A stretch of DNA of 64,000 bases. It comes from Vicia villosa (taxonomy: Eukaryota > Streptophyta > Magnoliopsida > Fabales > Fabaceae). The notes beneath the pieces were generated by a model. It had not been told where the DNA came from. It searched no databases and worked only from the letters and a program-made list of their open reading frames with translations. A program made the position numbers and the translations under genes. Positions 20,828-64,000 of the stretch are shown piece after piece; position 1 is the first letter of the stretch; each line of letters starts with the position of its first letter. The DNA lies in the NCBI RefSeq assembly GCF_029867415.1, contig NC_081183.1:53828336-53892335 (forward strand), read 5' to 3'.

Positions 20828-21371
20828 GGCTAGCATACTTTAGTAACAGAGGGAGAACGAATTCAGTAGCATTCATAAGCACATAGCACTCTTGTAACAA
20901 CTTGTAATTTTCAAAGAAACTTGAAATTCGAATTTTAAGTTTCAGTCAATTTCAATACAAAATAAACATTCAAACATCATCTCTGAGCTTCACTGAAACA
21001 ATTCCAATCATTTCCAAGTCTTAAACCTCATTGAATCGAGCTATATAGGCCACGGTTTGTTCAAACTAAAACCAACTTATATCTCATAACACACGCATAT
21101 TTAACAAGATGTAGATGCATAATTGTGTTTGGTTTGAAGCTCTGGTCGTTTCTGGAGCTTCAATTGGATTTTAATGGCTGTTTGTAGCATATACCATTTT
21201 AGGGTTTTCTTAGCTCAAAATTAGGGTTCTTCATTAGGGCCAAAATTAAAGCAAATAAAGGGCATGGTTACATTCAGTGGAACAAGACGAGTTGAATGGT
21301 ACCATCGCGCCTAATTTCTATGCCTGTTTACCCCTATTCGTTATTTTGCAGAATTAGGGTTCATCAATTAT

Positions 21372-21393
21372 AGCGCTTTTGCATAAAAGCGCT
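21372..21393. other. Perfect 9-bp-stem inverted repeat in the B LTR
   Basis: AGCGCTTTT and AAAAGCGCT flank a GCAT loop. The copy in the 3' LTR (37070-37091) is identical. It lies about 550 bp after the TATA box, so it is probably within the transcribed part. Confidence 0.75.
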
Positions 21394-22988: not shown

Positions 22989-22999
22989 TGGCGACTCTG
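22989..22999 (+). promoter_or_regulatory. Primer-site-like 11-mer inside U5 of B
   Basis: TGGCGACTCTG is identical to the first 11 bases of the true primer site at 23106 but lies about 110 bp upstream, inside the LTR. It recurs in the 3' LTR (38687-38697). Fragment C has the same phrase on the minus strand near 41955. Confidence 0.6.
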
Positions 23000-23011
23000 T
23001 GAATTTTCAAA

Positions 23012-23025
23012 AATGCGAAAGCATT
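23012..23025 (+). other. AATGC-GAAA-GCATT hairpin in U5 of B
   Basis: A perfect 5-bp stem is closed by a GNRA tetraloop, between the primer-site-like 11-mer and the end of the LTR. Confidence 0.55.
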
Positions 23026-23105
23026 AAGCGATAAAAAAGAGTCAGTTCACGTATCTCTCCCGAACAGAGGTATGGCCCGAATTAAAAAACGGAGGTCCAC
23101 AGAAC

Positions 23106-37800: not shown

Positions 37801-38799
37801 TCATTTTAATTTAATTAATCATGCATTAATTATAATTAAAATCAATCATAAAAAATCCAAAAACATGCCTTTTATTTTTCTTGCAATTTAAATTCCTAGA
37901 TAAATGTATAGGATGTCAAATTCATGTAAATAGGCTAGTTTACATTTCCTGCACAATCGATGTAATAGCGTAGATTTACTTTCCGCACTTTACATTTCCG
38001 CATTTTAATTTCCAGCAAATATAAACTGCGTGTATGTCAAAGATAAAATTGAACTGTTAGATCACTAACTTCAAAGATAAAATATCTGAATACAAACACA
38101 ATCACACTTGCACCTTTTAAGGTAATCCCTTTCTCATTCTTTTCAAAATCAAAGTCAAAATTCTACTGTTTCGAGTACAAAATCGAACCTTTTGTTTGTA
38201 TCCGGTGAAAGGATAGATTTTTAAAGGAAATAAGGATAAAGACCTTACAACTCAGGGTAGACCTCCTAGTTTGCTTGCTCAAATCAAAACAAACAAAATT
38301 CTCATACACTGTTGTTTTTCAAAACAAAACTTTCAAAAAAGACAATACTTTGTATACATCCAAACACGGATTATTACAAAGTTAACGTTTTTTTCAAAAC
38401 ATCTTTCGAAAGATAAACAAGCATTTTGTATACATCCACACACGGATCATTACAAAATTCAATTTACAAAAGTATTTGAAACCACATATGAGCATTCTAA
38501 AGCAATTGAAAAGTGATAGAAAAACAAGTGAGCTAAGCAAACTTAAGAGCCCATGGATAACCATGGATACAAAGGGTGCTAACACCTTCCCTTTGTATAA
38601 CCTACCCCCTTACCCAGAATTTCTTAAAGGTCTTTTTTCTGTTTCTTTTATAAACCTTTCCTTAATTGGATAAAATAAAAGGTCGGTGGCGACTCTGTGA
38701 ATTTTCAAAAATGCGAAAGCATTAAGCGATAAAAAAGAGTCAGTTCACGTATCTCTCCCGAACAAAGGTATGGCCCGAATTAAAAAACGGAGGTCCACA
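34819..38799 (+). mobile_element. 3' LTR of element B
   Basis: The 3981-bp LTR is nearly identical to the 5' copy, differing at about 20 scattered positions and homopolymer lengths by eye. It ends GGTCCACA at 38799, followed by the acggt target duplication. The TATA box is at 36518-36525. Confidence 0.95.
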
Positions 38800-39855: not shown

Positions 39856-41830
39856 TGTAACACTCCATATTTTCATAATTTAATTTTAAATTTATTTAAT
39901 TGAATTATGGAGAATTATTTGGAATTATTGAGAGCTATGGAGAAATTAAGCAAATGGGCTTAAGTCGTGATTAGTAAAGAGGGGGGGTGTATTGGTAGAC
40001 CCTATTACTAATTAAAATAGTTTTATTTTATTTTCCACAAAATAGAGGAATTGTGGGAAAGAGGAATAGAACTAAGGAGAAGAGAAAAGCTTGAACGTGA
40101 AAAGAGAAGAGAAGCAGAGAAGTGAGACAGAGGAAGAGCGAAGAATCAACCTTCAGGTAAGGGGGAACTCTTCCATTTATCTTCTATTATGGGGTTATAG
40201 GTAGTAGGATAGAATTGATCATGTTGTTTATGTCAATTGAGTTATGCTTAGGTTGTAAAAATGTTAGGTTTTGGGAGAATTGATTGATAATGTTGTATTG
40301 ATCATGTACGATGTTAATTGGATAGTTGAAATGTATTATAAATGTGTTATAATGTGTGTTGTTTTACTGTACGTGAAATCTGGTTGAAATGGAATTGGTT
40401 TGGTAATGATTCGGTGAAAAAAGAACAAAATCGTAGGCTGTTTTCTGTGATTCGGATTCCTGGAAATCGCCAGTTTGCGCCGTGTCCAAGAGTTGGCGCC
40501 GCAAACTGCTTGGCAGAAAGCCAGGAAGTTCTGATGTATTCAGTACGCGCTGCGAGCACATGTTTGCGCCGCGAAGGCATACTTCTTTCTCGTTTCGCGC
40601 CGCGAACACATGTTTGTGCCGCGAAGTACTTGGCAGAAGGTTAAGGAATTTTTACTCGCTCAGTTCGCGCCGCGAACCAATGTTGGCGCCGCGTGCTGTT
40701 AGTTACAAGCCATTTCGAAAAGTTTAAAGATGTGTAAATTTTAAACCGTAAACCGGATTTTGGTGCCGTTTCGAGCATGGTGAAGCTAAGCAAATAATTT
40801 ACATAATAAAATGGTGTTTTGAGTCGTGACTCGAAATTATTTTAAAACACTCGATTTTATTTGGTTGTGGTGGTTTATGCTTACAGGTACACTAATGAAT
40901 GTTTTACCTGTTTTGATGTTGTGGATGTACTGGTGGTTGATATACATATATTGTTGATGTACTATATGTGTTTTGTTATGGTTGAGGATAGTATAAACTA
41001 TATGTGGCTATCGATTGTTGTGTTCGTTGATGATTATGATATCTGGTTGATTAATGTTGATGATGAGCATGTTATGGTTGATACATGCATTTCATAATCA
41101 TTATGTTGCTGGTCCTTGACGATGGTGGATCAGTGGTAGCTAATTCCCATTGTGTGGAATGAGTGAGTGGGTGTTGCCGTATCCTTGACGATTGTGGATC
41201 GGTGAGACGGGTTATCCCAGATTTTGGTACCACATGCATGTAGTTGCACTGCATTAGGCTAATTGTGTTATTATAACATGAATGGAAGATTGTCCAATGT
41301 TATAATATGTGTTGATTGTGTGTTTGTTGTACTGATTGTATGGTTGTGAACCTGATCGTAACTGTAATTGGGTGAATGACATGTGATTGATATTTTATTA
41401 TCTATATCCTATAACATTGGTTAAATGTGAATGAGACTCACCCTTACTGTTGTTATTTTTCAGATTGAGGAGTAACTTTTGTACTTGGTGAGGGTTAGCT
41501 CGTCAAGTAATTCGTTAGAGTTGGTTGGGTCCGTGTCATGCTCTGGTCGTGTAACATTGGGGAAGTTGTTTAGAGTTACTTGTTAAACTCTTTTTATTTG
41601 GGTGGATTACTTATATTGGCGTTTTAAGTCTATTACTTGGTTGTTTTTATTATTCAGATGTTTAATATAATTCCGCTGTGTTAACATGATGATCTGAATA
41701 AGTTTGGTTTGACGTTCTGTTTTATGGCATGACATGAGTATTGTTTAATATATGGAAGTTGTAATGCCCTTTTTCATGTTTACTCTGATTATTGTTTAAT
41801 ATTTATGCGGGGTATTAGAAGGGTGTTGCA
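39856..41830 (+). mobile_element. 3' LTR of element A
   Basis: The 1975-bp LTR keeps about 45 bp (about 40192-40236) that the 5' copy has lost between short ttatg repeats. It also keeps more intact CG sites in its repeat cluster (about 40478-40700). It ends GTGTTGCA and is followed by gggag. Confidence 0.92.
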
Positions 41831-45715: not shown

Positions 45716-46133
45716 CTACGCGTCTGTAAACAATTCTGGGTATTTCTCTCAGATTGCACTTTCCAGTTCCTAAGTTGCATCACCAGTGGCTTCGTTCCAA
45801 ATTATTTTTACTAACGGAATTTCCTCAATCCTTAGCAGTTTCATCTTTCTATCCTCGATCCTAACGGGTACCACTTCAAATGATAAGTTGTCCTTAAGCT
45901 GAATGGTGTCTAGTTTGATTACGTGAGAAGGGTCTGGAATGTACTCCCGTAATTGTGAGACATGGAACACATCATGTATTCCAAATAGAAATGGTGGTAA
46001 TGCAATTCGGTAAGCCACAGGTCCAATTCTTGAAGTTATTTGGCGGGGTCCAATAAACTTAGGAGTTAACTTCCGCGCCTTGATTGCTCTCCCTACCCCC
46101 GTGGTGGGTGTGACACGGAGGAACACATGGTAT
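45716..46133 (-). pseudogene. pol C-terminus of element D (GPY/F and chromodomain-type end)
   Basis: Reading from 46133 to 45716 on the minus strand, the frame contains HVFLRVTPTTGVG, a GPY/F-like segment (FIGPRQITSRIG) and the DVFHVSQLREYIPDPSHV block seen in the A homologue. The end ELESA...YPELF follows two in-frame stops (one at a Trp codon near 45776). Upstream coding sequence continues at 61766 across element E. Its close similarity to element A places D in the same Tekay-like lineage. Confidence 0.88.
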
Positions 46134-46759
46134 TGTTAGCTGAAGATTTCGTTTAGAAAGAATATCCTTTGAAGAGTTAGAATTCGAAGGAAGATGGTTA
46201 CTGATAACCATTTCTGAGTTTAAAAATGGCTGTTGATGGCCATGTTTCGAGAATGATTGTTTAAGTTGAAAAGAAGATAGTTAGAAATGGAGCTAGTTCG
46301 AAGAGAATCATCTTTGAGACTTAAACATTTTTTGCAAAATACGTAAAGTACTGAAGCTTAACGTGTTTTCGTGGCATTCTCGGTTCTGATCACGTTGCCA
46401 CGCGTCGAAAGAGGATTCAGGCAGGAGGATTTGAATTTCGAAGTAGTCTGTGTAACCGCACAAGGACAGATGGCATCCCAGGGATTCTTGTGGGTAACGT
46501 GGCTTCAGATTAGTGTAGGACCGTTAGGGTCGAAATTAGTATAAATAAGGGTCTTAATGTTAGGATTCCGTGTGTTCATTTTGTACAAATCACTCACAAA
46601 CCACTCAAGTATCAAGTGTTTAGAGAACGAGTTCGCTGAGAAATATACGTATGAAACCAACACCAGTTTAATACATTTGTATCTTTCTTTATTTGAAGTA
46701 TCTTTTCATTATTACTGCTTTCGTTTACTTTTTGTTATTTACTGTTCTGCAATTCTTTC
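46134..46759 (+). mobile_element. Truncated 5' LTR of element E
   Basis: About 620 bp match the first two thirds of the 3' LTR with about 17 differences by eye (near 2.7%). It carries a TATA box at 46540. Homology fades at TTCTTTCC (46753-46760), where the inverted arm starts. No primer-binding site follows. Confidence 0.85.
46540..46547 (+). promoter_or_regulatory. TATA box in the truncated 5' LTR of E
   Basis: TATAAATA, conserved at 61210-61217 in the 3' LTR. Transcription from here would run straight into the palindrome. Confidence 0.65.
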
Positions 46760-48471
46760 CGGAAACAATTAGGGATTTATGACCTAATCTAGTTATCTAA
46801 AACAGGTCTAGAATATAACCAAACCATGTTAGTAGCGTCAGTTTATTTCTGGGATGCTTCTCACAATACTTTCCATCTTCCATGCGGAATGGTTACCCCT
46901 ACCCTCTTCGACGTAGCTGCTATAACAGGGCTTCGACCAACTGGGGAAACCTTCGACCCCAATTTCATGGATACTGACACCATCAATTTTAATGAAGCAA
47001 CAGTCACTTACACTGCTTTCATTCAACAATACCACAACGAAACGACCACAGAAGTCTCAGACGAAGAACATATTGCGTTTTTAGCACTCTGGCTTTCGAG
47101 ATGCGTCTTTTGTTCTAGGTCCATTCAAGTGGCAAAGAGATACCTTTGTATGGCTAACCAGCTAAATGCTGGTAAAAAGTTAAACCTAAGCCAGTTAATT
47201 CTAGGATTTCTCTACGAGAATCTCGGTGAAGCAACAGACCTTGTTAAGAACTACAAAACAGGATCTCTTCTTTTTGCTGGTCCTTTCTGGTTGTTGCAAC
47301 TATGGCTTAATGCCACTTTTGAGGCTCATCTCCCATACAAAAGTGTCGTGGATGAAGAAAATGCAGATATAAAGAATCAAACAGTAGAAGGAACCAGATT
47401 GGCTTACCTAACCCCGAAAGAAGAAACTGACAAACTTCGTGAAACCTTCTTGGCGTACATAATGATGTTCGCTAAACGTTATGAATTCAGTCCCTCGATG
47501 GCTCCATTCGTACAACGGAAGGTGGGTCCCGATTGGTTTACTCGAGAATTTCCAGCAGTTTCTTCCGACCAACAAGCTGAATCCATGGCTATCTAGGAAG
47601 ATTTCCTCACCCCAAAGTTGTTATATCACCGACTTCGATCTCCAAAGAGTCACTGCTATCTTCTTTGTTATCAACCAAATCTGGTTTCGAGACAATTTGA
47701 GTTGGCATCACCACTTTGTCTCCCGTCTCTTTCGAACCTGCTTTTTACTCTACCATAGATTTTCATCAATGGTGGACAGATTATTATTCCATGCAAATCT
47801 TCGACGCTGAAAGCCTTACTCGGGAACTAACTGAAGCTTTTGCTGATGCGCAGGAGAATTTCCATAAAGGTACTTCGACTCATATTAAAGAAATCCAAGC
47901 ATTTCAGAAATTCTTTGAAACTATCTACAAGCCTGATGATCTTAGTCGGACCGTTCGTGAGGCTGCGGTCACTTTACGTGAAAAGTTTTCTGCTAAACTG
48001 GATAAGTTGAAATTGCCCACGTCTGTTCGACCTGAACTACGTTATAAAGTGGCTTTCAAACTTCATCCTCCAAAATTTCCTCCACTACCTAGTGTTGATT
48101 TTGGTGTGGCTTTAAGCCCTCCTTTTCCAGACTGATTCGTGTGTGGGAATCTCATAAAAATCCTTCAAGAAGAATCTAAAAAATACGCTAAACGAGTGGT
48201 CCCGACTAAGCATACCTTGGATAATTTCAAAGGACATCTTCATATAGGTCTTGAGCACGTTCGCGTCTTGACTCCAATACCCGAAGGTTGGGGTTTAGAC
48301 AATCTTTCGACTAACTTTTCTTTCTTTACTGAAATACTGATTTACATTTTGTTCATAGCCGTTACTCGAAAGAGACAAATCAAGGAAGCTCCTGTACAGA
48401 AGGGTTCGGGAGCGTCGAGGAATACCAAGGCGAGTGGGAGTGATTCTGTCACCACTGGCAAGAAACCCACG

Positions 48472-48545
48472 GTACATACATACCTTGTATTTTAACTTGT
48501 GAAATTTTATGAATATTACTCACTGGGTTTTAATATGTATTTCAG
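48472..48545 (+). other. Intron 1 of the left-arm PMD gene
   Basis: The 74-bp interval runs from GTACAT to tatttcAG. Removal joins KKPT to SSKPP in frame. Confidence 0.6.
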
Positions 48546-48812
48546 AGCTCGAAACCTCCAGCGTCTTCGAAGCGAAAAGTTCCTCAAACAACTGCTTCAG
48601 ATGACGAAGATAAATCTCCTCCGCGTACTAGACAAGGAATAAAGAAAAGACAGAAAGATGCCACCCCTTCAGCCAAAGGAAAGGGATCTGGAACTTCGAA
48701 GCTCACTTCATCGAGTGACAAGATATCTTCTGATGAATCACCCTTGAAGGCTGCTAGTACTATCCCCATTGTGGAGAGTCATAACTCAAGCCCATACAAC
48801 ATTCCAACCAAG

Positions 48813-48891
48813 GTATTTGGATTTCACAGTCTAATCATTTTTCAAACTCTAATTCCAATGACTAAGTTCACATCTTACCTTGTAAATGTAG
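48813..48891 (+). other. Intron 2 of the left-arm PMD gene
   Basis: The 79-bp interval runs from GTATTTGG to aaatgtAG. Removal joins NIPTK to DDAST in frame. Confidence 0.6.
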
Positions 48892-48961
48892 GATGATGCT
48901 AGCACAACTACTTCTGACCTCAAAACCTCAAGTTTAAACATTGATCTTGACAATCTTCGAG

Positions 48962-49039
48962 GTAAATGTCTGCCTTTTCGAATGACAGACGAATTTCTTG
49001 CAACTTTCCATTTTTATCAATTCTAACTAATCCACACAG
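48962..49039 (+). other. Intron 3 of the left-arm PMD gene
   Basis: The 78-bp interval runs from GTAAATG to ccacacAG. Removal joins DNLRG to VPRHK in frame. The acceptor region is also present in the right arm (about 59215-59230, minus strand). Confidence 0.6.
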
Positions 49040-50117
49040 GTGTTCCTCGACACAAATCTCCTGTGCTTTCTCCAGTTCTCGAAGACACTCAACCTCTTGC
49101 AACTATCATTCCAACTATGCTTGCTGAAGAAAGTCATTCAAATGATGAGTCTCCACCTATTCATCAAGATGAAAATATGGAGGAGAACCCTCAATGTTTG
49201 AATAGTGATAATGCAGCCGGACAACCAACTGGCAGCGAAGATACTATATATGAGCAAGATGCTATAGAGGAAACTTCAACACAACCTACACCTGGTCTTC
49301 ATGAACCTTTGACCTTCGGAACTATAGTCACTCCTGTGACTACTTCGAAGCAGGCCTCCGCAATTCTTACTCCTGCAGAACTGGAGCAACTCAAGAAAAC
49401 TGATCCCGTAAGCTTCCTCAAGACCATGATGAGTGTTGATAACGCTTCGCCCATTGGACTTGGAACTTCTTCTAATGTCCTGGCGGGTACAGGTGACAAG
49501 GATGATATTCATAATCTCCTTCTTCAAATAAGGTAAAAGTTCTTCGAAACCAACCTCGTCGAAGCTCTAAGCAGGGATTCCACCAAATGTTATAGCTTAA
49601 ACAATCTTTTGAAGAAAGTAGACTTACTTCTAGTCTCAGAGGAAGTCTTAGAAGTGATTGTTCTACTGGGTTCTCTGATTGATCAACTCCAATCTAATCT
49701 TCTTCGAAAACGGAATATTGACGAGCAACTCACAACAAAGGTAACTTCTCATAGTTCTTCTTGGAAAGCTGCGAATGATGCAACAAAAAGGCTGACGCTC
49801 TTAAGCTTGAACGTTCGAAGAAACAGCAGGAATATGAAGATTGTGAAATGAATATCAAATCCTGGAAGCAAGAAATTGAACTCCTCGAAGAGAAGATAAA
49901 GAATGCCCAATCTCGTCTAGTAGAAATCCAACAAATCAATAAGAAAGAATTGACTGAAGTGGCGCAGTTAGGGATCCGACACTTCGAGACGGCACAGAAG
50001 CTAGCGCCAGAGATCGAAGACTTGAAAAGACAACAGGCATTAATCGAACATCATATGTCCTTATGGGAAACTCAATATTCGAAGATGAAAGATAATCTTC
50101 CCAAGGATTTTAATTAG

Positions 50118-50587
50118 CCGCTTTGGCCCTTGTACTATTTTTTTGTGTGTTTCGTACTTAGTTCTTTCATTTCCTTACTCTGTAATCAAACTTTCCTCAG
50201 GAATACATAAGTAACTTTTGTCTTTCTATCTTCCATATATATGATTTTGCAGTTGTCATAAGTAACGTTTTAGCAATTCCTAACAATTGCCAAATTAATT
50301 TTATCATCATAATGATTTTAATAATGCACCCACGTGATATGATTACCCTTCGCAGCCTCTTAAGCCTAGACTTGACGTTTCCACTTCCCTTAGCCATAAC
50401 CATCATTAAATGATGACATCACCTTTTTCAAAACATCTACTTGAGACGTGCGTGTATCAGTTTTCAATCATGATTACACTTCAACTTCCAAGGCGGGAAA
50501 CGGCGGAGGCCATAACTTCTCTTGGGGATACCAAACGCAGTCCAATCAACACTAAAAAATGAACCGTTCTTTTTGGCCAACGTATTC
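50118..50587 (+). other. Spacer between the PMD gene and the second antisense gene, left arm
   Basis: No ORF is visible. It is likely the terminator region of the first gene plus promoter of the second. It matches 57681-58131 of the right arm in inverse orientation. Confidence 0.5.
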
Positions 50588-50595
50588 TATATAAA
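50588..50595 (+). promoter_or_regulatory. TATA box of the second antisense gene, left arm
   Basis: TATATAAA in attcTATATAAAgcg lies 123 bp before the ATG at 50718. The identical site is kept in the right arm at 57673-57680. Confidence 0.65.
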
Positions 50596-50717
50596 GCGTT
50601 AGCATTCTACTCCTTTCTTCAAACTTTCCGCAAACTCTTACTAAACTTTGCTCTCTTCTCCTTGCATCCTTTCAAACACAGAGTTTTGACAAAAATTTCT
50701 TGCATTCTCTCTCTCAA

Positions 50718-51449
50718 ATGGCGCAACCCTTGACCTACAATACCATCAGAGCCTGTATCAAAAAGGAGTTCAAACTTTCTGAGGAAGAGTTTGAAGAAAG
50801 TCACATCAGCCTCAGCGCACTCTTTGCTAATCAACAACTCCAGTTCTATCACGAAATCCTGGAGGGGTCTGTTTATCCCAACATGTTAGCAGATTTCTGG
50901 ATGTTTGCGTCCCTGCGCATAGATCCAGAAGGGAGAACCACCATCGTGTCTGAGGTTCGAAGGGCTCACATTACCATCACTCCTTCGACCATCTCATACC
51001 TGCTAAGATGTAACAATTCTGGAGAATCGTTTGATGACAATACCATCAACATGACCACCTACCGTATGTTGAGGACCCTCATGGAAAATGATCCCTTTAG
51101 TGCTAAAGTCATTAAGATTTGGCACCAGCTTTTAGTGGGCAACTTCCGCCCGCGAAACCATAACCTAGACAACATCATGATGGAGGATCTGGAGTTTATA
51201 CTCTGTTCCCTCCGGGGAAAAAAGATCAACTTTCCATTGCTAATCTTCAAAGGGCTTGTCGAAGCTGTTTCCATGGTTGCTTCTCGTCAAGGTGTGGTGA
51301 CGTGCCTTCCTCATGGAAGATTCTTGTCCTATATGTTCCTCAAAAAGGGCATAGTGAGAAGAATGCGAAGGTCGGGATCCCTATACATGTTCGAAGCAGA
51401 AAGCCTACCCCTGCTATCTTTGGAGGGTATAGAACAAAGGATCAACTAG
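50718..51449 (+). CDS. Second antisense gene of E, 'putative plant transposon protein'-like, intact in the left arm
   Basis: The 243-residue frame is intact, with start MAQPLTYNTIR at 50718 about 120 bp after a good TATA box. The middle (EVRRAHITITPSTISYLLRCN; IWHQLLVGNFRPRNHNLDNI; LRGKKINFPLLIFKGLVEAV) follows the pattern of the 'putative plant transposon protein' domain common in legume repeats. No catalytic motif or zinc finger is visible, and function is unknown. In the native orientation of E (right arm) this gene is antisense to pol and lies tail-to-tail with it. The right-arm copy has a stop codon, so this inverted copy is the better preserved one. Confidence 0.7.
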   Translation: MAQPLTYNTIRACIKKEFKLSEEEFEESHISLSALFANQQLQFYHEILEGSVYPNMLADFWMFASLRIDPEGRTTIVSEVRRAHITITPSTISYLLRCNNSGESFDDNTINMTTYRMLRTLMENDPFSAKVIKIWHQLLVGNFRPRNHNLDNIMMEDLEFILCSLRGKKINFPLLIFKGLVEAVSMVASRQGVVTCLPHGRFLSYMFLKKGIVRRMRRSGSLYMFEAESLPLLSLEGIEQRIN

Positions 51450-51742
51450 AGGGTGCTTTGTTTGAAGCTTTACTGGAGGCGTTATAGGCTTTAGTTTTTA
51501 TTATCCAAAATCTTTTGAATGCCTCTTTTTGATAGCCTCTAGTATGCTTCTGTTTCTGTAGCCCTTTGTTAGTGGAAACATAATTTTTCCAAAAACTGAA
51601 ATGTACTTCTTCCAATCTTAATGAAATGTATTTTGATATTGCTTTGTCTGTGTTTACTTTATTTACCACATATCTTGTTTGAACACAAAGCCATTTTGGT
51701 GTTTGTTTTACCATTTTGGCCCACGTAGCATACTTCGAATAT
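51450..51742. other. Tail-to-tail spacer between the antisense gene and pol, left arm
   Basis: About 290 bp between the stop of the plus-strand antisense gene and the stop of the minus-strand pol. The corresponding right-arm interval, with the end of pol, is mostly deleted (56763-56818). Confidence 0.5.
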
Positions 51743-54369
51743 CTACGTTTTCGCAATCTTTACTTCGTGCATGCTTGGTTTGTATCTTTTCAGATACTTC
51801 CCATTTACTCTTAAGATCCTACGATCTTCTGCCAACTCTTCTATCTCGTAAGCGTTATTCAAGAATACTTTTCAAATTCGAAAGGGTTCTTCCCAATGTG
51901 GGGACCATTTACCTAGTGCTTGATTCTTTCGATCTATAGGTAAAATAACTTTCCAAACTAAGTCATTGTTAATAAATGTTTTACCTTTCACCTTTTTATT
52001 GTATGCTCTGGACACCCTTTCTTTTTGTTTTGTTTATCATTTCCAGCGCTTGAAGTCTGTCTTCGTCTAAATCTACCAATTCGTTCATCATCAATTCCCA
52101 ATATATGTTTGGAGGAATTTCTGCTTGTCTTTGAATTCGGACTGATTGCAAATATATCTCAACTGGAAGCACTACATCGTGTCCGAATGTTAATTGGAAA
52201 GGTGTAGTGTTTGTAGCTTCTTTTGGCGACGTTCGATAGGGCCAGAGTGCTTGGTCCAAAGTTTTATGCCAACTCTTGGGTTTTTTCCCTACGTGTTTCT
52301 TTATGAGACCAATTATTATCTTATTTGCTGCTTCAACTTGTCCATTTGCCTGAGCGTAGTAAGCTGTAGAGGTAAACAATTTGAACCCCATTTCTTTGGC
52401 GAAATCTTGCATCTTTTGCTCAGTAAACACTGATCCTTGATCTGTGGTTATACTCTCTGGGATTCCGAATCTATATATAATGTGCCTTTGAATAAACTCA
52501 ATCACAGCCTCCTGATCCACATTTGCAAGTGGTATTGCTTCGACCCATTTTGTGAAATAGTCTATTCCCACTAGGATATATCTTTGACCTTTAGAAGACT
52601 TGGGGTGAATTTCCCCAATTAAGTCTAGTGCCCAACCCTTGAAAGGCCATGGTTTTATTATTGAACTTAATTCATTTGCTGGAGCATGTTGAATACCTGC
52701 ATGTTCTTGACATTCTTGACATCCTTTTGCAAATTCTATGCAATCTTTTAACATGGAAGGCCAATACATTCCGTATCGAAACAAAAGCCATTTCATTTTG
52801 TGCCCCGCTTGGTGTGCACCACATGCCCCACTATGTACATTTGAGAGAGCCAAATATGCTTCCGCTTCACCCAAACATTTCAGCAAGACTCCTTCAGGAG
52901 TTTTCTTAAACAATTCATTTCCCATCCAGAAGTATGATAAGGCTCGGTACTTTACCTTTCTATCAGTGTCTGTCGAAGGCTCTTTTAAATAGTTCACAAT
53001 TGGGCTCCTCCAATCTGTGTCTGCTAAAGAGTCTATATTTAACACTTCGAACTCCTCTTTGTTAGAGAAACCTAATTGTGAGTTCTCCAGATCACTCGGG
53101 GAAAGCTTGGTGGCCATTGCTTTGCCTCTCACTTCGATCAGTTCCTCTAGTTTTTCTTTTGATACCCTGTATCCTGAGGCTGACTGTGCCAAATCATTTG
53201 CTTCTTGGTTATTCAATCTTGAAACGTGACTTAAATCCACGTACTCGAATTTTTTAAGCAGCCTGTTTGCTATGAAGAAATACATGATCAAATTCTCTTT
53301 GATACATTTGTATTCCTTCGTCAATTGCTTAATCACTAGTTCGGAGTCTCCTTTAATTTCGACTCTGGTTGCCCCCAATTCTAACAAAGCTTCAAGTCCA
53401 GCGATCAGTGCTTCGTATTCAGCTTCGTTGTTGGAGCATAAGGGACCTCCAATCTTGTACTTGAGCTTTGTTGGAATTCCATCAGGAGAAATTATCAGTA
53501 TTCCAACGCCGGTTCCTTCTTTATGAGTCGAACCATTGAAGTATAACTTCCAAGGCTTCAAGTCTACATATTGTTGAGGGTGCTCAACCACTGCATCGTC
53601 AACCATGAAATCTGACACGATCTGACCTTTCATTGCTTTAAGAGGTTGAAATATCAAAGAGTACTCCGTAAGGGCTAAAGCCCATTTGCCAATTCGACTA
53701 TGCAATATTGGTTTTGATAACATATGTTTAATAACATCACAATGAGACGAAACATAATATCAACTGGCTTTATATAATACTTGAGTTTGATACAAGAGAA
53801 ATATAAACAAAGGCAGAGTTTTTCTATGGCGCTATACCTAGTCTCTGCATCATTGAGTACTCTACTTAAATAATAAATAGATCTTTCGACACCATTGTCA
53901 TCTTCTTGTGCTAACATGCTGCCTATTGTATTATCTGAAGCTGAAATATACAGGCGCATATGCTTCTTCCCATCTGGGGGAGACAATAATGGTGGATGCA
54001 TCAAGTATTGCTTGATTTTTTCAAAAGTTTCTTGATGTTCAGCACGCCATTCGAACTTTCCTTGCTTGAGTCGAAGTAAGGGGGAAAAGGCTTGCGTGCG
54101 TCCACTCAAGTTTGAGATAAATCTTCTCAAGAAGTTTATCTTTCCTAGTAATGACTGTAACTCTTTCTTCGTGGATGGAGGCTTTGTTTCCATAATAGCC
54201 TTTGTTTTGTTTTGATTAATTTCTATTCCCTTTTAGTGGACTACGAAGCCCAGGAAATCTCCAGCCTGCACAAAGAAAGCACATTTAAGGGGGTTCATCT
54301 TTAAGCCATGTTTTCTCATTCTTTCGAATGATTAAATCAGATGGTCAAGATGACTGTTATCTGAAACAG
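51743..54369 (-). pseudogene. Left-arm pol fragment of E (RT 3' part, two RNases H, integrase)
   Basis: On the minus strand from 54369 it starts within RT (HLDHLSQSFER equivalent), without the catalytic palm. A gypsy RNase H follows, then an archaeal-type RNase H in which the first catalytic Asp is Asn (LYFNGSTHKE; the right arm keeps DGS). Integrase has an HHCC finger and DDE core ([26 protein letters not shown]). A C-terminal segment to TAG 51743-51745 is absent from the right arm. Breaks are TAA at 54233-54235, a frameshift near 53700-53760 and one near 52000. The two RNase H domains mark the Tat lineage. Confidence 0.88.
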
Positions 54370-54382
54370 ATTTTCGTGATGA
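54370..54382. other. 13-nt spacer at the centre of the E palindrome
   Basis: attttcgtgatga separates CTGAAACAG (54361-54369) from CTGTTTCAG (54383-54391). It contains gatga, and the break lies near where the RT YxDD box would be expected, just upstream of the HLDHL block. Confidence 0.85.
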
Positions 54383-56762
54383 CTGTTTCAGATTACAATC
54401 ATCTTGACCATCTGAGCCAATCATTCGAAAGAACGAGAAAACATGGCTTAAAGATGAACCCCCTTAAATGTGCTTTCTTTGTGCAGGATGGAGATTTCCT
54501 GGGCTTCGTAGTCCACTAAAAGGGAATAGAAATTAATCAAAACAAAACAAAGGCTATTATGGAAACAAAGCCTCCATCCACGAAGAAAGAGTTACAGTCA
54601 TTACTAGGAAAGATAAACTTCTTGAGAAGATTTATCTCGAACTTGAGTGGACGCACGCAAGCTTTTTCCCCCTTACTTCGACTAAAGCAAGGAAAGTTCG
54701 AATGGCGTGCTGAATATCAAGAAGCTTTTGAAAAAATCAAGCAATACTTGATGCATCCACCAATATTGTCTCCCCCACATGGGAAGAAGCACATGCTCCT
54801 GTATATTTTGGCTTCAGATAATACAATAGGTAGCATGTTAGCCCAGGAGGACAACAATGGCATCGAAAGGGCCATTTATTACTTAAGTAGAGTACTCAAT
54901 GATGCAGAGACTAGGTATAGCGCAATAGAAAAACTCTGCCTTTGTTTATATTTCTCTTGTATCAAACTCAAGTATTATATAAAGCCAGTTGATGTTTATG
55001 TTTCATCTCATTGTGATGTTATTAAAAATATGCTATCAAAACCAATATTGCATAGTCGAATTGGCAAATGGGCTTTAGCCCTTACGGAGTACTCTTTGAT
55101 ATTTCAACCTCTTAAAACAATGAAAGGTCAGATCGTGTCAGATTTCATTGTTGACCATGCAGTGGTTGAGAACCCTCAACAATATGTAGACTTGAAGCCT
55201 TGGAAGTTATACTTTGATGGTTCGACTCATAAAGAAGGAACCGGCGTTAGAATACTGATAATTTCTCCTGATGGAATTCCAACAAAGCTCAAGTACAAGA
55301 TTGAAGGTCCCTTATGCTCCAACAACGAAGCTGAATACGAAGCACTGATCGCTAGACTTGAAGCTTTGTTAGAATTGGGGGCAACCAGAGTTGAAATTAA
55401 AGGAGACTCTGAACTAGTGATTAAGCAATTGACGAAGGAATACAAATGTATCAAAGAGAATTTGATCATGTATTTCGTCATAGCAAACAGGCTGCTTAAA
55501 AAATTCGAGTACGTGGATTTAAGTCACGTTTCAAGATTGAATAATCAAGAAGCAAATGATTTGGCACAGTTAGCCTCAGGATACAGGGTATCAAAAGAAA
55601 AACTAGAGGAACTGAGCGAAGTGAGAGGCAAAGCAATGGCCACCAAGCTTTCCCCGAGTGATCTAGAGAACTCACAATTAGGTTTCTCTAACAAAGAGGA
55701 GTTCAAAGTGTTAAATATAGACTCTTTAGCAGACACAGATTGGAGGAGCCCAATTGTGAACTATTTAAAAGAGCCTTCGACAGACACTGATAGAAAGGTA
55801 AAGTACCGAGCCTTATCATACTTCTGGATGGGAAATGAATTGTTTAAGAAAACTCCTGAAGGAGTCTTGCTGAAATGGTTGGGTGAAGCGGAAGCATATT
55901 TGGCTCTCTCAAATGTACATAGTGGGGCATGTGGTGCACACCAAGCGGGGCACAAAATGAAATGGCTTTTGTTTCGATACGGAATGTATTGGCCTTCCAT
56001 GTTAAAAGATTGCATAGAATTTGCAAAAGGATGTCAAGAATGTCAAGAACATGCAGGTATTCAACATGCTCCAGCAAATGAATTAAGTTCAATAATAAAA
56101 CCATGGCCTTTCAGAGGTTGGGCACTAGACTTAATTGGGGAAATTCACCCCAAGTCTTCTAAAGGTCAAATATATATCCTAGTGGGAATAGACTATTTCA
56201 CAAAATGGGTCGAAGCAATACCACTTGCAAATGTGGATCAGGAGGCTGTGATTGAGTTTATTCAAAGGCACATTATATATAGATTCGGAATCCCAGAGAG
56301 TATAACCACAGATCAAGGATCAGTGTTTACTGGGCGAAAGATGCAAGATTTCGCCAAAGAAATGGGGTTCAAGTTGTTTACCTCTACACCTTACTACGCT
56401 CAGGCGAATGGACAAGTTGAAGCAGCAAATAAGATAGTAATTGGTCTCATAAAGAAACACGTAGGGAAAAAACCCAAGAGTTGGCATAAAACTTTGGACC
56501 AAGCACTCTGGGCCTGTCGAACGTTCCAAAAGAAGCTACAAACACTACACCTTTCCATTTGACGTTCGGACACGATGCAGTGCTCCCAGTTGAGATATAC
56601 TTGCAGTCAGTTCGGATTCAAAGACAGGCAGAAATTCCTCCAAATACATATTGGGAATTGATGATGAACGAATTAGTAGATTTGGACGAAGACAGACTTC
56701 GAGCGTTGGAGATGATAAAGAGGGAAAAAGAAAGGGTGTCCAGAGCATACAAAAAATTGTAG
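54383..56762 (+). pseudogene. Right-arm pol fragment of E (RT 3' part, two RNases H, integrase)
   Basis: The frame starts in RT (VSDYNHLDHLSQ), is cut by TAA 54517-54519 (shared with the left arm), and continues from 54559. Gypsy RNase H, archaeal-type RNase H ([10 protein letters not shown], catalytic Asp kept) and integrase ([12 protein letters not shown]...[29 protein letters not shown]) follow. A one-base loss near 56520 shifts the frame, and the rest is read from 56559 to 56762. The C-terminal segment is deleted. This is the copy in the native orientation of the element. Confidence 0.88.
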
Positions 56763-56818
56763 ACAATAAAACTAAAAAACTATAACATCTCCATCAAAAG
56801 CCTCAGACAACACACCCT

Positions 56819-57550
56819 CTAGTTAATCCGTTGTTCTAAACCCTCCAGGGATAGCAAGGGCAAGCTTTCTGCTTCGAACATGTCTAGATACCCTGACCTG
56901 CGCATTCTTCTCACTATGCCCTTTTTGAGAAACATGTAGGACAAGAATCTTCTATAAGGAAGGCACGTCACCACACCTTGACGAGAAGCAGCCATGGAAA
57001 CAACTTCGACAAGCCCTTTGAAGATCAGCAATGGAAAGTTGATCTTCTTTCCCCGGAGGACACAGAGTATAAACTCCAGATCCTCCATCATGATGCTGTC
57101 TAGGTCATGGCTTCGTGGGTGGAAGTTGCCCACTAAAAGCTGATGCCAAATCCTAATGACTTTAGCACTAAAGTGATCATTTTCCATGAGGGTCCTCAAC
57201 ATATGGTAGGTGGTCATGTTGATGGTGTTGTCATCAAACGATTCTCCAGAGTTGTTACATCACAGCAGGTCAGAGATGGTTGAGGGAGTGACAATAATGT
57301 GAGCCCTTCGAACCTCAGACACGATGGTGGTTCTCCCTTCTGGATCTATGCGCAGGGACGCAAACATCCAGAAATCTGCTAACATGTTGGGATAAACAGA
57401 CCCCTCCAGGATTTCGTGATAGAACTGGAGTTGTTGGTTAGCAAAGAGTGCGCTGATGCTGATGTGACTCTCTTCAAACTCTTCCTCAGAAAGTTTGAAC
57501 TCCTTTTTGATACAAGCTCTGATGGTATTGTAGGTCAAGGGTTGCGCCAT
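56819..57550 (-). pseudogene. Second antisense gene of E, right arm, with one nonsense codon
   Basis: This is the counterpart of 50718-51449, starting MAQPLTYNTIR at 57550. A TGA near 57258 stands where the left arm has an Arg codon (LLRCN). The rest is open to 56819. Apart from that stop it has a full-length 243-codon structure and is antisense to the adjacent pol. Confidence 0.7.
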
Positions 57551-57672
57551 TTGAGAGAGAGAATGCAAGAGATTTTTGTCAAAATTCTGTGTTTGAAAGG
57601 ATGCAAGGAGAAGAGAGCAAATTTTGATAAGAGTTTGGGGAAAGTATGAAGAAAGGAGTAGAATGCTAACGC

Positions 57673-57680
57673 TTTATATA
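57673..57680 (-). promoter_or_regulatory. TATA box of the second antisense gene, right arm
   Basis: TATATAAA on the minus strand, 123 bp before the ATG at 57550. It is conserved with 50588-50595. Confidence 0.65.
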
Positions 57681-58131
57681 GAATACGTTGGCCAAAAAGA
57701 ACAGTTCATTTTTTTGTTGATTGGACTGCGTTTGGTATCCCCAAGAGAAGTTATGGCCTCCACCGTTTCCCGCCTTGGAAGTTGAAGTGTAATCATGATT
57801 GAAAACTGATACACGCACGTCTCAAGTAGACATTTTGAAAAAGGTGATGTCATCATTTAATCATGGTTACGGCTAAGGGAAGTGGAAACGTCAAGTCTTG
57901 GCTCAAGAGGCTGCGAAGGGTAATCATGTCACGTGGGTGCATTATTAAAATCATTATGGTAATAAAATAATTTTGGCAATTGTTAGGAATTGCTAAAATG
58001 TTACTTATGACAACTGAAAAATTAGATGTGTGGAAGATTGAAAGATAAAATTGCATATATATTCTGGAGGAAGTTCGATTACAAAATAAACTAAGTACGG
58101 AATACAAAGGGCAGTACAAGGTGCAAAGTAA
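57681..58131 (-). other. Spacer between the two antisense genes, right arm
   Basis: No ORF of coding character. It mirrors 50118-50587. Confidence 0.5.
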
Positions 58132-60358
58132 CTAATTAAAGTCCCTAGGAAGATTATCTTTTATCTTCGAATACTGAGTCTCCCATAAGGACATATGACG
58201 TTCGATTATTTCCTGTTGTCTTTTTAGTTCTTCGATCTCTGGCACTAGCTTCTGTGCCGTCTCGAAGTGTTGAATCCCTAACTGCGCCACTTCAGTCAAT
58301 TCTTCCTGATGAGTTTGTTGGATTGCTGCCTGACGAGACTGGGCATTCTTTATCTTCTCTTCGAGGAGTTCAATTTCTTGATTCCAAGATTTGATATTCG
58401 TTTCACAATCTTCATATTCCTTCTGGTCCTTCGAACGTTCGAGCTTAAGGGCGTCAGCCTTTATTGTTGCATCATTTGCAGCTTTCCAAGAAGAACTATG
58501 AGAAGTCATCTTTGTTGTGAGTTTCTCGTCAATATTCCGTTTTTGAAGAAGATTAGATTGGAGTTGATCAATCAGAGAACCCAGTAAAACAATCACTTCT
58601 GAGACTTCCTCTGAGACCAGGAGTAAGTCTACTTTCTTCAAAAGATTGTTTAAGCTATAACATTTGGTGGAATCCCTGCTTAGAGCTTCGACGAGGTTGG
58701 TTTCAAAGAACTTTTCCCTTATTTGACGAAGGATATTAGGAATATCATCCTTGTCACCAGTATCCGCCAAGACATTAGAAGAAGTTCCAAGCCCAATGGG
58801 CGAAACATTATCGACGTTCATCATGGTCTTGAGGAAGCTTACGGGATCAGTTTTCTTGAGTTGCTCCAGTTCTGAAGGAGTAAGCATTGCGAGGACCTGG
58901 TTCAAAGTAGTCACAGGAGTGACTCTAGTTCCGAAGGTCGAAGCTTCATGAGAACCAGGTGTAGGCTGTTTGGAAGTTTCCTCTGTAGCATCTTGCTCAG
59001 ATATAATATCTTCGCTGCTAGTTGGTTGTCCGGCTGCATTATCACTATCCGAATATTGAGGATCCTCCCCCATATTTTCATCTTGATGAATAGGTGGAGA
59101 CTCATCATTTGAATGGCTTTCTTCAACAGGCACAGTTGGAATGATGGTTGTAAGGGGTTAAGTGTCTTCGAGAACTAGAGAGAGCACAGGAGATTTGTGT
59201 CGAGGAACACCTGTGTTGAACAGTTAGAATTGATAAAAATGGAAAGTTGCAAGAAAGAGCCAATCTAGTTCCTTCTACTGTTCGATTTTTTATGGCTGGA
59301 TCCTCTTCATTTATAATACCTCAAAATGGGAGGTGAGCTTCGAAAGTAGCGTTGAGCCATAATTGCAACAACCAGAAGGGACCAGCAAAAAGCAGAGATC
59401 CTGTTTTATAGCTCTTAACAAGGTCGGTTGCTTCACCGAGGTTCTCGTAGAGAAATCCTAGAATTAACTGGCTTATGTTTAACTTTTTCCCAGCATGTAG
59501 CTGATTAGCCATACAAAGATATCTCTTTGCTACTTTTATGGACCTAGAACAAAAAACGCATCTCGAAAGCCATAGTGCTAGAAATGCAATATGTTCTTCA
59601 TCTGAGACTTCTGCATTCGCTGCGTCATGATATTGTTGAATGAAACCAGTGTAAGTGTTTGTTGCATCATTGAAGTTGATGGTTTCAGTGTCCATGAAAT
59701 GGGGATCGAAGGTTTCTCCAGTTGGTCGAAGCCCTGTGATAGCAGCTACGTCAAAGAGGGTAGGGGTGACCATTCCACATGGAAGGTGGAAAGTATTGTG
59801 AGAAGCATCCCAGAAATAAACTGACGCTACTAACATGGTTTGGTTATATTCTAAATCGGTTTTGGATAACTGGATTAGGTCATAAATCCCAAGTTGTTGC
59901 CAGAAAGAAGCCTTTTGTTTTTCCACCTTCGCTAACCAAGCGTAGTACAAGTCAGGATCTTTTGCTAAAGGGATTGACCTAAAGACTTTCACGAAATTGG
60001 TTACATAGTTTAACCTAATTTTCTCTAAGGCCATGGAGGTTTCAGTCGAGGTTTCTTCTGCGTGGTCAGGGTCAGCTAAGATTGGATGGCCCTGTTCATC
60101 TATCTTATTCTTGCTAACTAAAGGTCTGGTTTTATAATAAGCAGGGAAAAATTTACTCAAAGAGGGGTTAGTTCCTCCTGGTAAAGGACCCATGAAGGCA
60201 TGAGTTTTTCCAAAAAGATCAAAAGGAATGATTACCTGAGAAGCGTAGATAGCGCGCGCCTCTTCAGTGTATGGGTCTGGAATGTGTTCTTGATTCCCTA
60301 TTTGTGTAGGTTTCTGGAATTTTTGAACAGGTTGAAGAGCATTTGAAGAAGACGCCAT
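58132..60358 (-). pseudogene. Right-arm antisense plant-mobile-domain gene of E, internally deleted
   Basis: The start MASSSNALQPVQ lies at 60358 on the minus strand, and an in-frame ATG at 60394 is 12 codons upstream. The first part (60358-59321) is an intact plant-mobile-domain N-terminus, including LALWLSRCVFCSRS and FAGPFWLLQLWLNATF. About 1.6 kb, covering the rest of the domain and introns 1 to part of 3, is lost at about 59257. The C-terminal exon (59133-58132) keeps an acidic Ser/Thr-rich region and a long coiled coil ending LPRDFN. TAA at 59158-59160 is specific to this arm. In natural E-type elements this would be a multi-exon gene antisense to the retroelement and located between pol and the 3' LTR. 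Such antisense ORFs are known in Tat-lineage elements. Confidence 0.75.
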
Positions 60359-60789
60359 GAGTAAGTTTGATTTGAGAAAATGGGTTGAATGCAACCAAAG
60401 AGGATTTTTCCTTTCTGTGGAGAAAGTAGGAGATAGAAGTGAAAGCTATGAGAGGGTAGAAGTTCAGGTATTTAAAGGTTTAATGGAAACCCTTTCAAAT
60501 CTTTTGGGTAAAAGTCAAAAGACACGCGGAAGGCGCTGATTTAATCCAACGGCGGTCGAATAGTTATCAGCCTTACTCCTAGTATATAGGAGTAATGATC
60601 ATGAAGTAATGCTAGAACGTGGGAATGTAAGTTCTAAGAAGACATCTTTGAAAGTGACAAGACGTTTTGAAAGTGGAGTCATAAATGATTATGACGTTAG
60701 TCAGTTGTCTTGGAACTCTAAGAAGTGAGTACAACGAAATCTCATCATGACAAGAAACGCCTATTTCTCTTGTTTTCGAAACAGGCATT
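60359..60789 (-). other. Promoter-side region of the antisense PMD gene
   Basis: No ORF of note. A weak TATA-like stretch (tttaaatacc on the minus strand, about 60468-60478) lies about 110 bp upstream of the ATG. This region is single copy within E, as the left arm lacks it. Confidence 0.35.
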
Positions 60790-60803
60790 TATTGGGGGCA
60801 ATT
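60790..60803 (+). promoter_or_regulatory. Polypurine tract of element E
   Basis: tattgggggcaatt directly precedes the 3' LTR start TGTTAGC. It fixes the plus orientation of E. Confidence 0.7.
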
Positions 60804-61760
60804 TGTTAGCTGAAGATTTCGTTTAGAAAGAATATCCTTTGAAGAGTTAGAATTCGAAGGAAGATGGTTACTGATGACCATTTCTGAGTTTAAGAATGGC
60901 TGTTGATGGCCATGTTTCGAGAAAGATTGTTTAAGTTGAAATGAAGATAGTTAGAAATGGAGCTAGTTCGAAGAGAATCATCTTTGAGACTTAAACGTTT
61001 TTTGCGAAATACGTAAAGTACTGAAGCTTAACGTGTTTTCGTGGCATTCTCGGTTCTGATCATGTTGCCACGCGTCGAAAGAGGATTCAGGCGGGAGGAT
61101 TTGAATTTCGAAGTAGTCTGTGTAACCGCACAAGGACAGATGACATCCCAGGGATTCTTGTGGGTAACGTGGCTTCAGATTAGTGTAGGACCGTTAGAGT
61201 CGAAATTCGTATAAATATGGGTCTTAATGTTAGGATTCCGTGTGTTCATTTTGTATAAATCACTCACAAACCACTCAAGTATCAAGTGTTTAGAGAACGA
61301 GTTCGCTGAGAAATGTACGTATGACACCAACACCAGTTTAATACATTTGTATCTTTCTTTATTCAAGTATCTTTTCATTATTACTGCTTTCGTTTACTTT
61401 CTGTTATTTACATTCCCGCACTTCTTTTATTTCATCTAACTTTTATCTCGAAGCATTTTACATTCCTACATTTAACATTCTTGCACGTTACATTTATGCA
61501 GTTTATACGCTTTTATTTATATTTCTTTGTCGAAAGTCATACTTACGTGTATAACAAGTGTTGTTTTTAAGTAAACATTCACACGATCATATCACAAACA
61601 AGTTTTCTCGAAGCCAGAACAAACAAGCATGAATCAAATCATATCGAAAGACAATTGTTTGACTATGTCCTAGGATCAATCTAGTCGATCTTGCGAGTAA
61701 CCAAAGTATATTTTATAGTTTGGAGGACTAGCGGTTGTTTATCGGAAATCACCGTAAACA
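60804..61760 (+). mobile_element. 3' LTR of element E
   Basis: The 957-bp complete LTR has TG...CA ends and a TATA box at 61210-61217, and is followed by the ggtat target duplication. A cattttacattcctacattt-type low-complexity stretch lies in its last third. Confidence 0.88.
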
Positions 61761-64000
61761 GGTATCCTTCTTCAAAATCCAATGGCCTACGTCTTTTATC
61801 AGCGTAGCTTTTCTGACGATCTTGTGAAGCCTTCATCTTTTCCCTAATGCTTTTAACCTTTTCAGTAGTTTGATGAACCATTTTTGGGCCTACAATCATA
61901 CTCTCACCATCTTGATACCAACATAATTGCGTCTGACATTTTCGTCTATATAGTGCCTCAAATGGGGCCATTCCTATACTAGTATGAAAACTGTTGTTGT
62001 AGGTGAATTCAATCAAAGGTAGTATATCATCCCAACTCCCTCTATCATCCAACACACATGCCCGAAGTAGATCTTCCAATGACTGATTCGTTCGTTTAAC
62101 TTGTCCATCTGTTTGTGGATGATATGCCAAACTTAATCTTAGCTTTGTTCCAAGTGCCTCATGTAATGCACCCCAAAAATTTGATGTGAAATTTGGGTCT
62201 TGATCTGACACGATGCTAAAAGGTACACCATGTAGTCTAACAATTTCAGAAATGTAAATTTCCGTTAACTTGGCTACATTATAGGTTGTTCTCACCGGTA
62301 AGAAATGAGAAGACTTGGTCAGACGATCGACAATCACCCAAATTGAGTCATGCATCCTTCAAGTTTTTGGTAATCCGGTGATAAAATCCATTGGAATGCT
62401 ATCCCACTTCCACTCGAGAACATCTAAGGTTTGCAACATTCCTGTTGGCCTTTGGTGTTCTATCTTTGCTTTTTGGCAAGTCAAGCAGGATGCTACGTAA
62501 TCTACCACCGCTTTCTTCATCCCTGGCCACCAATAGTTTTGTCTCAAATATTTATACATTTTTGTTGCTCTAGGGTGAATGCTTATTTTGCTCTTGTGGG
62601 CTTCCTCTAAAATCAATTTCCCTATCTCTGCAACATCGGGTACACAAATTCTTCCGTTGCACCTTAAGGTGTTATCGGGTCCTACTTTAAAGCCGGGTAC
62701 CTTTCCTTGTACCATAAATTCTCTTTTCCCTTCCAAGAGTGAATTTTTTTGACAGTTCCGAATGTCTTCCAAAATTCCATTAGAGATCTTGATAATTCCA
62801 TATTGAAGAGTTCCCTGGCCCAATTTCATGTCTAGGTGTATGTCCCTGAATGTTTCCCATAGTTCTTGTTGTTTGGCCATCAGTGATGCTGTTTCAAGGA
62901 CACCTTTTCTACTTAATGCATATGCCACCACGTTCGCTTTTCCTGGATGATATTGTAATGTGAAATCGTAATCTTTCAAGATTTCCGTCCATCTCCTTTG
63001 TCTCATGCTCAACTCCTTTTGATCAAACAAATACTTTAAACTCTTATAGTCTCTGAACACCGTGAACGTACATCCGTAGAGATAATGGCGCCAAATTTTT
63101 AGCGCAAAAACTACATCTGCAAGTTCCAAATCATGAGTGGGATAATTCCTTTCGCGAGTGTTTAGTTGTCTCGAAGCATATGGAAGAATCAAAACACATC
63201 CTAGTTCTTGATGAGATGCATCGCAATAAAATTCGTATGGCTCTTCAGGTTATGGCAGAATCAAAACAGGCGATGCTATAAGTTTCTTCTTCAACAACTG
63301 AAAATTAGCTTCACATTTCTCATTCTAAGCAAAAGGTTGATCCTTTCTTGTTAGTTGAGTCAATGGAGCTACTATCTTTTCAAATCCTTCAATGAATCGT
63401 CGATAGTATCCAGCTAATCCTACGAAACTTCTTATGTCAGTGACTGTCTGAGGCTGATTCCATGCGAGCACGGTCTCAATCTTTGCTGGATCGACAGCAA
63501 TGCCTTCATTTGATATGACATGTCCCAAGAAATTTACCCTCTCTAGCCAAAATTCTCATTTGGATGGATTAACATACAACTTATTTTCTCGTAGAATTTG
63601 TAGCACTTGACGTAGATGTTCTTCGTGTTCCATTTTACTTCGAGAGTAAATAAGGATATCGTCAATGAATAGAACAACGAATTTTTCCAGAAATGGATGG
63701 AAAATTAGGTTCATGTAATCCATGAAAATAGCTGGTGCATTAGTCACTCCAAAAGGCATGACTAGGTACTCATAATGTCCATAACGAGTCCTGAATGCAG
63801 TCTTGGGTATATCTTCCTCTCTTACCCGAATTTGATGATAGCCAGACTTCAAATCAATCTTAGAAAAAATAGATGCTCCTTTAAGTTGGTCCATCAAGTC
63901 ATCAATACGAGGTAAGGAATATTGATTCTTCATGGTTGCCTTGTTAAGTTGCCCGTAGTCCACACATAGTCGGGAACGCCCGTCCTTTTTCTTTACCGAA
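61761..64000 (-). pseudogene. pol of element D (RT, RNase H, integrase), partial at the window edge
   Basis: The minus strand from 64000 reads [21 protein letters not shown] with [12 protein letters not shown] and FIDDILIY, the tether LGHVIS...[11 protein letters not shown], RNase H ([20 protein letters not shown]; the usual ADALSR is AYALSR), an integrase zinc finger and core ([11 protein letters not shown]) and RRPLDFEEG. It then breaks at the ggtat duplication of E (61761-61765). In-frame stops occur at about 63553, 63325, 63250 and 62356. The apparent C-terminus of the 62355-61681 frame is translated LTR of E, not D. The lineage is Tekay-like, as for element A. Confidence 0.9.

Follow-up and report, generated by a model that had tools for sequence, protein, structure and literature searches.

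A palindromic LTR retrotransposon insertion in Vicia villosa with arms from two subfamilies

The stretch analyzed here, a 64-kb window of Vicia villosa DNA (contig NC_081183.1), contains a large inverted repeat, which was detected by self-BLAST of the window and whose arm limits were set by global alignment. The left arm (46753 to 54369) is the reverse complement of the right arm (54383 to 59910), with a 13-nt spacer between them, at exactly the coordinates proposed in an initial annotation made from the sequence alone. The palindrome sits in a single unit of 15,627 bp (46134 to 61760) that ends in LTR sequence at both sides, in the same orientation, and a 5-bp target site duplication (TSD), GGTAT, flanks the whole unit (46129 to 46133 on the left and 61761 to 61765 on the right). 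Excision of the unit with one TSD kept joins the flanks and leaves the pol frame of the host element open across the former insertion point. LTR orientation, duplication, and rejoined frame are thus all as previously described. The interrupted host is a gypsy pol (45770 to 46135 plus 61681 to 63249). The letters of the reopened frame read as the integrase C-terminal region of a gypsy element, and RNase H and integrase zinc-binding domains (Pfam) were found further up the host pol.

The left LTR (46134 to 46752, plus strand) comprises positions 1 to 619 of a 957-bp LTR, keeps a TATA-like TATAAAT at 46540, and ends in a microhomology with the adjoining arm. The left arm (minus strand) is the inverted 3' half of an element of subfamily B, and the right arm (plus strand) is the 3' half of an element of subfamily A, with its genes in forward order; the two subfamilies are defined below. 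The center (54370 to 54382) consists of ATTTT and then CGTGATGA. A right-only tail (59911 to 60803, plus strand) holds the start of an antisense ORF with a plant mobile domain and a purine-rich stretch that, by eye, adjoins the LTR. The right LTR (60804 to 61760, plus strand) is complete, with 957 bp running from TG to CA. The unit has two proper LTR ends. The arms are unequal in length because two stretches of the left arm are missing from the right arm, one of 484 bp (at about 56750) and one of 1588 bp (at about 59257). The 484-bp loss looks private to the right arm, since the joining sequence was found once in the genome and 390 to 480 bp of the region are retained by 18 of the 18 spanning copies among 20 family members fetched from the assembly; it is ruled out as a mark of the right-arm subfamily. 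At the 1588-bp site, more than 1 kb is carried by all 12 spanning copies of these 20. The left arm is without about 100 bp, at approximately 47701 to 47705, that the fetched spanning copies have.

The right arm encodes the RNase H of reverse transcriptase (RT), a second RNase H (RVT_3), integrase, and a weak RT remnant that corresponds to the last quarter of the profile (RVT_1 positions 151-204/205) and scores below Pfam's cut-off. The left arm encodes the antisense ORF with the plant mobile domain, other antisense ORFs, integrase, RNase H, and the end of RT. Tat/Retand elements carry a second RNase H (RVT_3) downstream of that of RT. Antisense ORFs between pol and the 3' LTR are described for the same elements in the excerpt of PMC11963269. 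Both traits are present in the unit, where antisense ORFs lie between pol and the 3' LTR in both arms, one with the plant mobile domain PF10536. This content is consistent with a Ty3/gypsy element of the Tat/Retand type in which a long antisense-coding region lies between pol and the 3' LTR. The TRP28 domain, found in an antisense ORF of 97% of Retand clusters, had no match in the four antisense ORFs scanned.

The content missing from the unit was assessed against an ordinary family copy of about 15.7 kb (from pieces of copies L030 and L014), in which a further 5.2 kb, absent from the unit, lies between the 5' LTR and the position of the center. This region includes gag (PF03732, on one of its two longest ORFs). 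The ordinary 5' part (L030 after the LTR plus the first 497 nt of L014) gave no blastn match in the window at an E value of 1e-3, and its two longest ORFs gave no tblastn match in the unit. Protease is presumably lost because its region is lost; no protease model matched. Of the losses first proposed (Gag, protease, and the RT palm), that of gag is therefore borne out by the tblastn result, that of RT holds save for the last quarter of the profile, and that of protease is probable.

Elsewhere in the window, a direct pair of about 4 kb (19123 to 23101 and 34819 to 38799, 99.4% alike, with 11.7 kb between them) resembles the very long LTRs of a young LTR element. It is enclosed by a second direct pair (13684 to 15625 and 39856 to 41828, 94.2% alike), possibly an older LTR pair in the nest. 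Two short self-complementary tracts (3854 to 4037 and 6262 to 6377) match each other in both orientations at approximately 95 to 97%, and an inverted pair of 280 bp (4402 to 4680 and 5059 to 5337) is 96.8% alike, with its members about 0.4 kb apart.

Next, the junctions of the palindromic unit were examined. At the left junction, the LTR sequence CACTTCTTT joins the arm sequence GGCTTCTTT at a 7-nt microhomology, (C/A)TTCTTT, of which six bases remain. The join falls at LTR position 619, internal to the LTR and not at its terminus, which rules out autointegration. At the center, the spacer length of 13 nt stands, but the first five nucleotides are not foreign to the element: A-type and other ordinary copies have ATTTT where the left arm would continue. 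The 8 nt of CGTGATGA are filler between ATTTT and the right arm and match none of 19 aligned copies. The inner end of the left arm reads AAAAT, as in A-type and other copies; B copies L025 to L027 have AAAGT. The sequence GATGACTGT at 54378 to 54386 repeats 54349 to 54357, 29 nt away; in the arms, a 9-mer seldom recurs within 60 nt (12 of 13,087). No convincing primer-template pairing at the center was seen by eye, and simple snap-back pairing there was rejected on this ground. On our reading of the alignment, the inner breakpoint of each arm lies no more than about 8 nt from one shared homologous position, immediately past the YxDD codons; by our own arithmetic, breaks that arose independently in two elements of about 15.7 kb would coincide in this way roughly once in 1000.

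The symmetry of the center bears on whether a B element simply inserted, inverted, into an A element and two large deletions followed. Nesting does occur in the window; however, self-BLAST showed neither an LTR nor a tail of B in inverted orientation at the left junction, and the symmetric center would have to be a coincidence, which makes this sequence of events very improbable. With up to three mismatches allowed, the 2.03-Gb assembly yielded one occurrence of the center junction and one of the LTR-arm junction. The search for other copies with the junction at 54370 thus returned this locus only, and the idea that the palindrome spread as a family is ruled out.

To compare the ages of the parts, mismatches were counted between the arms and between the LTRs. 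The arms differ at 371 of 5524 aligned sites up to 59910. This divergence is not uniform but patchy, ranging from 0.8 to 14.8% over full 250-bp windows. Next to the center, 30 of 500 sites differ (6.0%); in a block shared by both arms (54883 to 56573), 38 of 1690 differ; and in the outer arms, 303 of 3334 differ (9.1%), with the outermost 0.63 kb being 88% alike by self-BLAST. The LTRs differ at 22 of 618 sites within the 619 bp that the left LTR retains (3.6%), and 5 of the 22 differences fall within the last ten sites before the junction. The outer arms are more divergent than the LTRs (Fisher p 9e-7). The similar divergence of arms and LTRs suggested as a check in the initial annotation was therefore not found, since the values of the outer arms and of the stretch next to the center both exceed that of the LTRs. 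Arm divergence far below that of the LTRs, which would have implied a later local duplication, was not seen either; the deviation is in the opposite direction. The left LTR is nearest the right LTR, followed by that of copy L014 (4.1%), and the right LTR is slightly nearer L014 (3.4%) than the left LTR. A tree of LTRs joins the left and right LTRs weakly (71/72), and the LTR evidence on the origin of the unit is weak either way.

Arms that were still identical when the unit inserted would have diverged without regard to codons. Outside the shared block (1006 codons), 128 of 248 differences are synonymous versus 74.3 expected, a value reached in 0 of 5000 simulations, and 125 of the 248 fall at third codon positions. 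Shifted-frame controls showed no excess (56 versus 74.9 expected and 59 versus 71.5 expected). No significant synonymous excess was found for the ORF at 58132 to 59157 alone (30 of 88, p 0.17), for 54883 to 56380 (10 of 28 versus 7.4 expected, p 0.18), or for 56381 to 56562 alone, a piece outside the pooled set (2 of 8, p 0.67). The arm differences bear the mark of purifying selection, and most of them therefore arose in functional ancestors before the arms were joined.

To place each arm within its family, 40 of 1207 candidate matches were scored, giving family copies at at least 39 other places in the assembly. Twenty of the 39 places, chosen by similarity at the center, were fetched as 10 kb each from the center towards the 3' LTR, and three further copies were chosen by similarity to the left arm. 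Copies covered by at least 75% numbered 18, 19, 18, 16, 15, and 12 for six arm segments and 11 for the LTR. Among the fetched copies, the right arm was nearest L013, L014, or L015 in every segment. The left arm was nearest L026 in segments S1, S4a, S4b, and S5, nearest L016/L017 in S3, and nearest L013 in S2. A single clade of left and right arms was rejected in S1 (p 0.001), S3 (p 0.001), S4a (p 3e-5), S4b (p 2e-6), and S5 (p 8e-8), so that a common origin of the arms is rejected in five of six segments; in S2, the arms are sisters in the tree (99/97). The right arm comes from subfamily A and the left arm from subfamily B, and the unit thus has two parents.

Genome searches with the outer 0.63 kb of each arm, in which 40 of about 2700 candidates were scored per arm, gave 39 other copies for the left arm (94 to 98% alike) and 39 for the right arm (89 to 96% alike). 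Neither arm was among the other arm's scored matches, and the five places common to both sets were all closer to the left arm. The three copies chosen by similarity to the left arm are 95 to 98% alike to its outer parts versus 87 to 92% to those of the right arm. No counterpart of the left arm's 0.63 kb above 98% was present among the scored copies; therefore, this sequence is not a second use of another locus. That observation bears on whether the assembly wrongly joined two elements. The family is highly repetitive and the unit is known here from the assembly; against such a misjoin stand the one TSD and the similar LTRs, and we find it hardly credible.

A site-by-site comparison of A and B covered the inner 2.4 kb. 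The consistent A/B contrast starts at 54394 (the 12th base of the right arm), ends after 54882, and is back by 56585. In outer 150-bp windows at 57383, 57533, 57833, and 58433, the left arm is no nearer L026 than A-type copies, and L013, which is A-like elsewhere, leaves the A group in S4b. The subfamilies are therefore mosaics themselves.

The interruption of the A/B contrast corresponds to the block common to both arms, about 1.7 kb with approximate edges, the arms being sisters in its 54883 to 56380 part. The block is a mosaic common to both arms, B-like from about 54983 to 55583 and A-like after. At four sites of the inner 2.4 kb, three of them inside the block, both arms have a base found in no other copy. 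At 54517, both arms carry a base that makes a stop and that none of the 19 other copies readable at this site has; the site is not part of the block but falls in a short stretch that lacks A/B differences and has them on either side. Divergence in 54883 to 56380 (28 of 1498) is below that of the LTRs (p 0.027), or not significantly so (p 0.19) when the junction-proximal cluster of LTR differences is left out (17 of 608), and could mean later exchange. The block points to additional exchange between the arms, either when the unit formed or somewhat later, which may have occurred in the same particle or as later arm-to-arm conversion.

The initial annotation had held that the nascent strand folded back and copied itself. 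Self-copying as the sole origin is ruled out by arm divergence in excess of LTR divergence, by the synonymous excess, and by the trees that place the arms in different subfamilies. For the common block, self-copying is possible, and perhaps also for the short stretch around 54517. A modified version, in which snap-back gave arms identical at birth and B sequence was later written into the left arm by ectopic gene conversion, would account for the fold-back geometry, the common block, and the four sites with a base in both arms only. Such conversion would, however, have had to make the left arm B-like over most of the 500 bp at the center and most of about 3.3 kb of aligned outer arm, and the left arm also holds the 484 bp and 1588 bp that the right arm is without. 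The selection signature is likewise at odds with it, and with the synonymous excess and the trees already largely refuting it, we regard this version as improbable.

We propose instead, with a probability of roughly 0.6, that the unit is a palindromic heterodimer formed by reverse transcription of two different co-packaged RNAs and inserted by one ordinary integration. RNAs of two members, A and B, of one Tat-type Ty3/gypsy family would have been co-packaged and copied in one particle. The minus strand made on RNA A would have extended from the 3' LTR across integrase and RNase H as far as a point shortly downstream of the YxDD codons of RT. There its 3' end would have switched, with reversed polarity, to the corresponding position on the minus-strand cDNA copied from RNA B. 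B would then have been copied outward as far as the antisense ORF, and a second switch, at the 6- to 7-nt microhomology, would have led onto LTR sequence, most simply plus-strand strong-stop DNA because this carries U3 with the exact terminal TG. The product, with its two proper LTR ends, would have been inserted once by integrase, and further exchange between the arms would have yielded the 1.7-kb common block. That the switches took place in the particle, and which strands served as templates, we infer. Of the mechanism first suggested, the single TSD-flanked unit, the fold-back polarity near YxDD, and the switch into the LTR are all retained; self-copying is not.

The one TSD, the reopened frame, the symmetric center breakpoints, the microhomology at the LTR junction, and the arms from different subfamilies, with an A/B contrast that sets in at the 12th base of the right arm, all favor the two-RNA origin, as do a synonymous excess outside the block with none significant inside it and the nearness of the left LTR to the right LTR, which the tree joins weakly. 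Against it, the common block needs extra switches or later gene conversion, the center offers no convincing primer pairing and an unexplained 8-nt filler, and the AAAAT at the inner end of the left arm disagrees with the B copies. The nearness of the right LTR to L014, the LTR sister grouping that is not firm, the block divergence below that of the LTRs, and the mosaicism of the subfamilies also count against it. The main rival is a post-integration route in which an ordinary A insertion later had its 5' part replaced by an inverted B copy. In this scenario, microhomology-mediated, replication-based repair would have used an ectopic B template, and the arms would afterwards have undergone gene conversion with each other. 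Microhomology and filler are equally typical of replication-based repair, so that the junctions fit this route equally well, and the common block resembles the outcome of conversion between the arms and is perhaps a little younger than the LTRs. Such repair does not predict that both inner breakpoints fall at the same homologous position, however, and it requires two ectopic joins with both LTR ends and the TSD left intact. We consider it a possible but distinctly unlikely origin.

If the two-RNA origin is true, a product made on two templates with a reversal of polarity can integrate with both of its LTR ends intact. Under either origin, descent from one folded-back parent is no safe assumption for palindromic elements. 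The two parents can be told apart, so that the copy preserves the positions of the switches, which provides a way to separate switching at the particle stage from later rearrangement. The unit is, in addition, a natural candidate for producing long hairpin RNA directed against its family: the left LTR retains positions 1 to 619, including the TATA-like box, and a transcript could thus fold into a long hairpin. Mu killer, which silences MuDR, is a model for hairpin-seeded silencing. Polarity-reversing cDNA switches might even be a regular side route of plant LTR elements, giving integration-competent head-to-head heterodimers with an LTR promoter, and a several-kilobase hairpin transcribed from them could seed silencing of both parental subfamilies; this generalization is speculative, and we think it doubtful.

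Inverted arrangements arise in the snap-back and autointegration products of retroviruses and Ty1, where snap-back gives identical arms and autointegration joins an LTR terminus to the inside of the element. In contrast to snap-back products, the arms here are from two parents, and in contrast to autointegration products, the join lies within the LTR. L1 is a non-LTR element, and its 5' inversions are not palindromes of two parents. Their inversion is tied to reverse transcription in the excerpt of PMC2912911. Among the matches listed in the open-access literature, by titles and the starts of abstracts, none was a precedent for a palindromic LTR insertion, and the excerpts of PMC3187697 and PMC11302176 contain no palindromic LTR element. 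For Arabidopsis Onsen, pairwise two-parent recombinants are ascribed to reverse transcription of co-packaged RNAs in the excerpt of PMC5668417; they are two-parent mosaics, as here, and no polarity reversal is described in that excerpt, the words "inverted" and "inversion" being absent from the paper's text. Closer still are the template-switching complexes of grasses, TSD-flanked heterodimers with three LTRs and two complete cores, which Sabot and Schulman (2007, PMC1950507) attributed to the co-packaging of RNAs and a template jump during reverse transcription. Like those complexes, the present unit has two related parents, one TSD, and similar outer LTRs in a single insertion; unlike them, it is head-to-head, has no internal LTR by self-BLAST, and consists of two 3' halves. 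With its polarity reversed and no internal LTR, it is not a member of that class as defined; by analogy, it nevertheless appears to follow the logic of the class and to work like one of its members.
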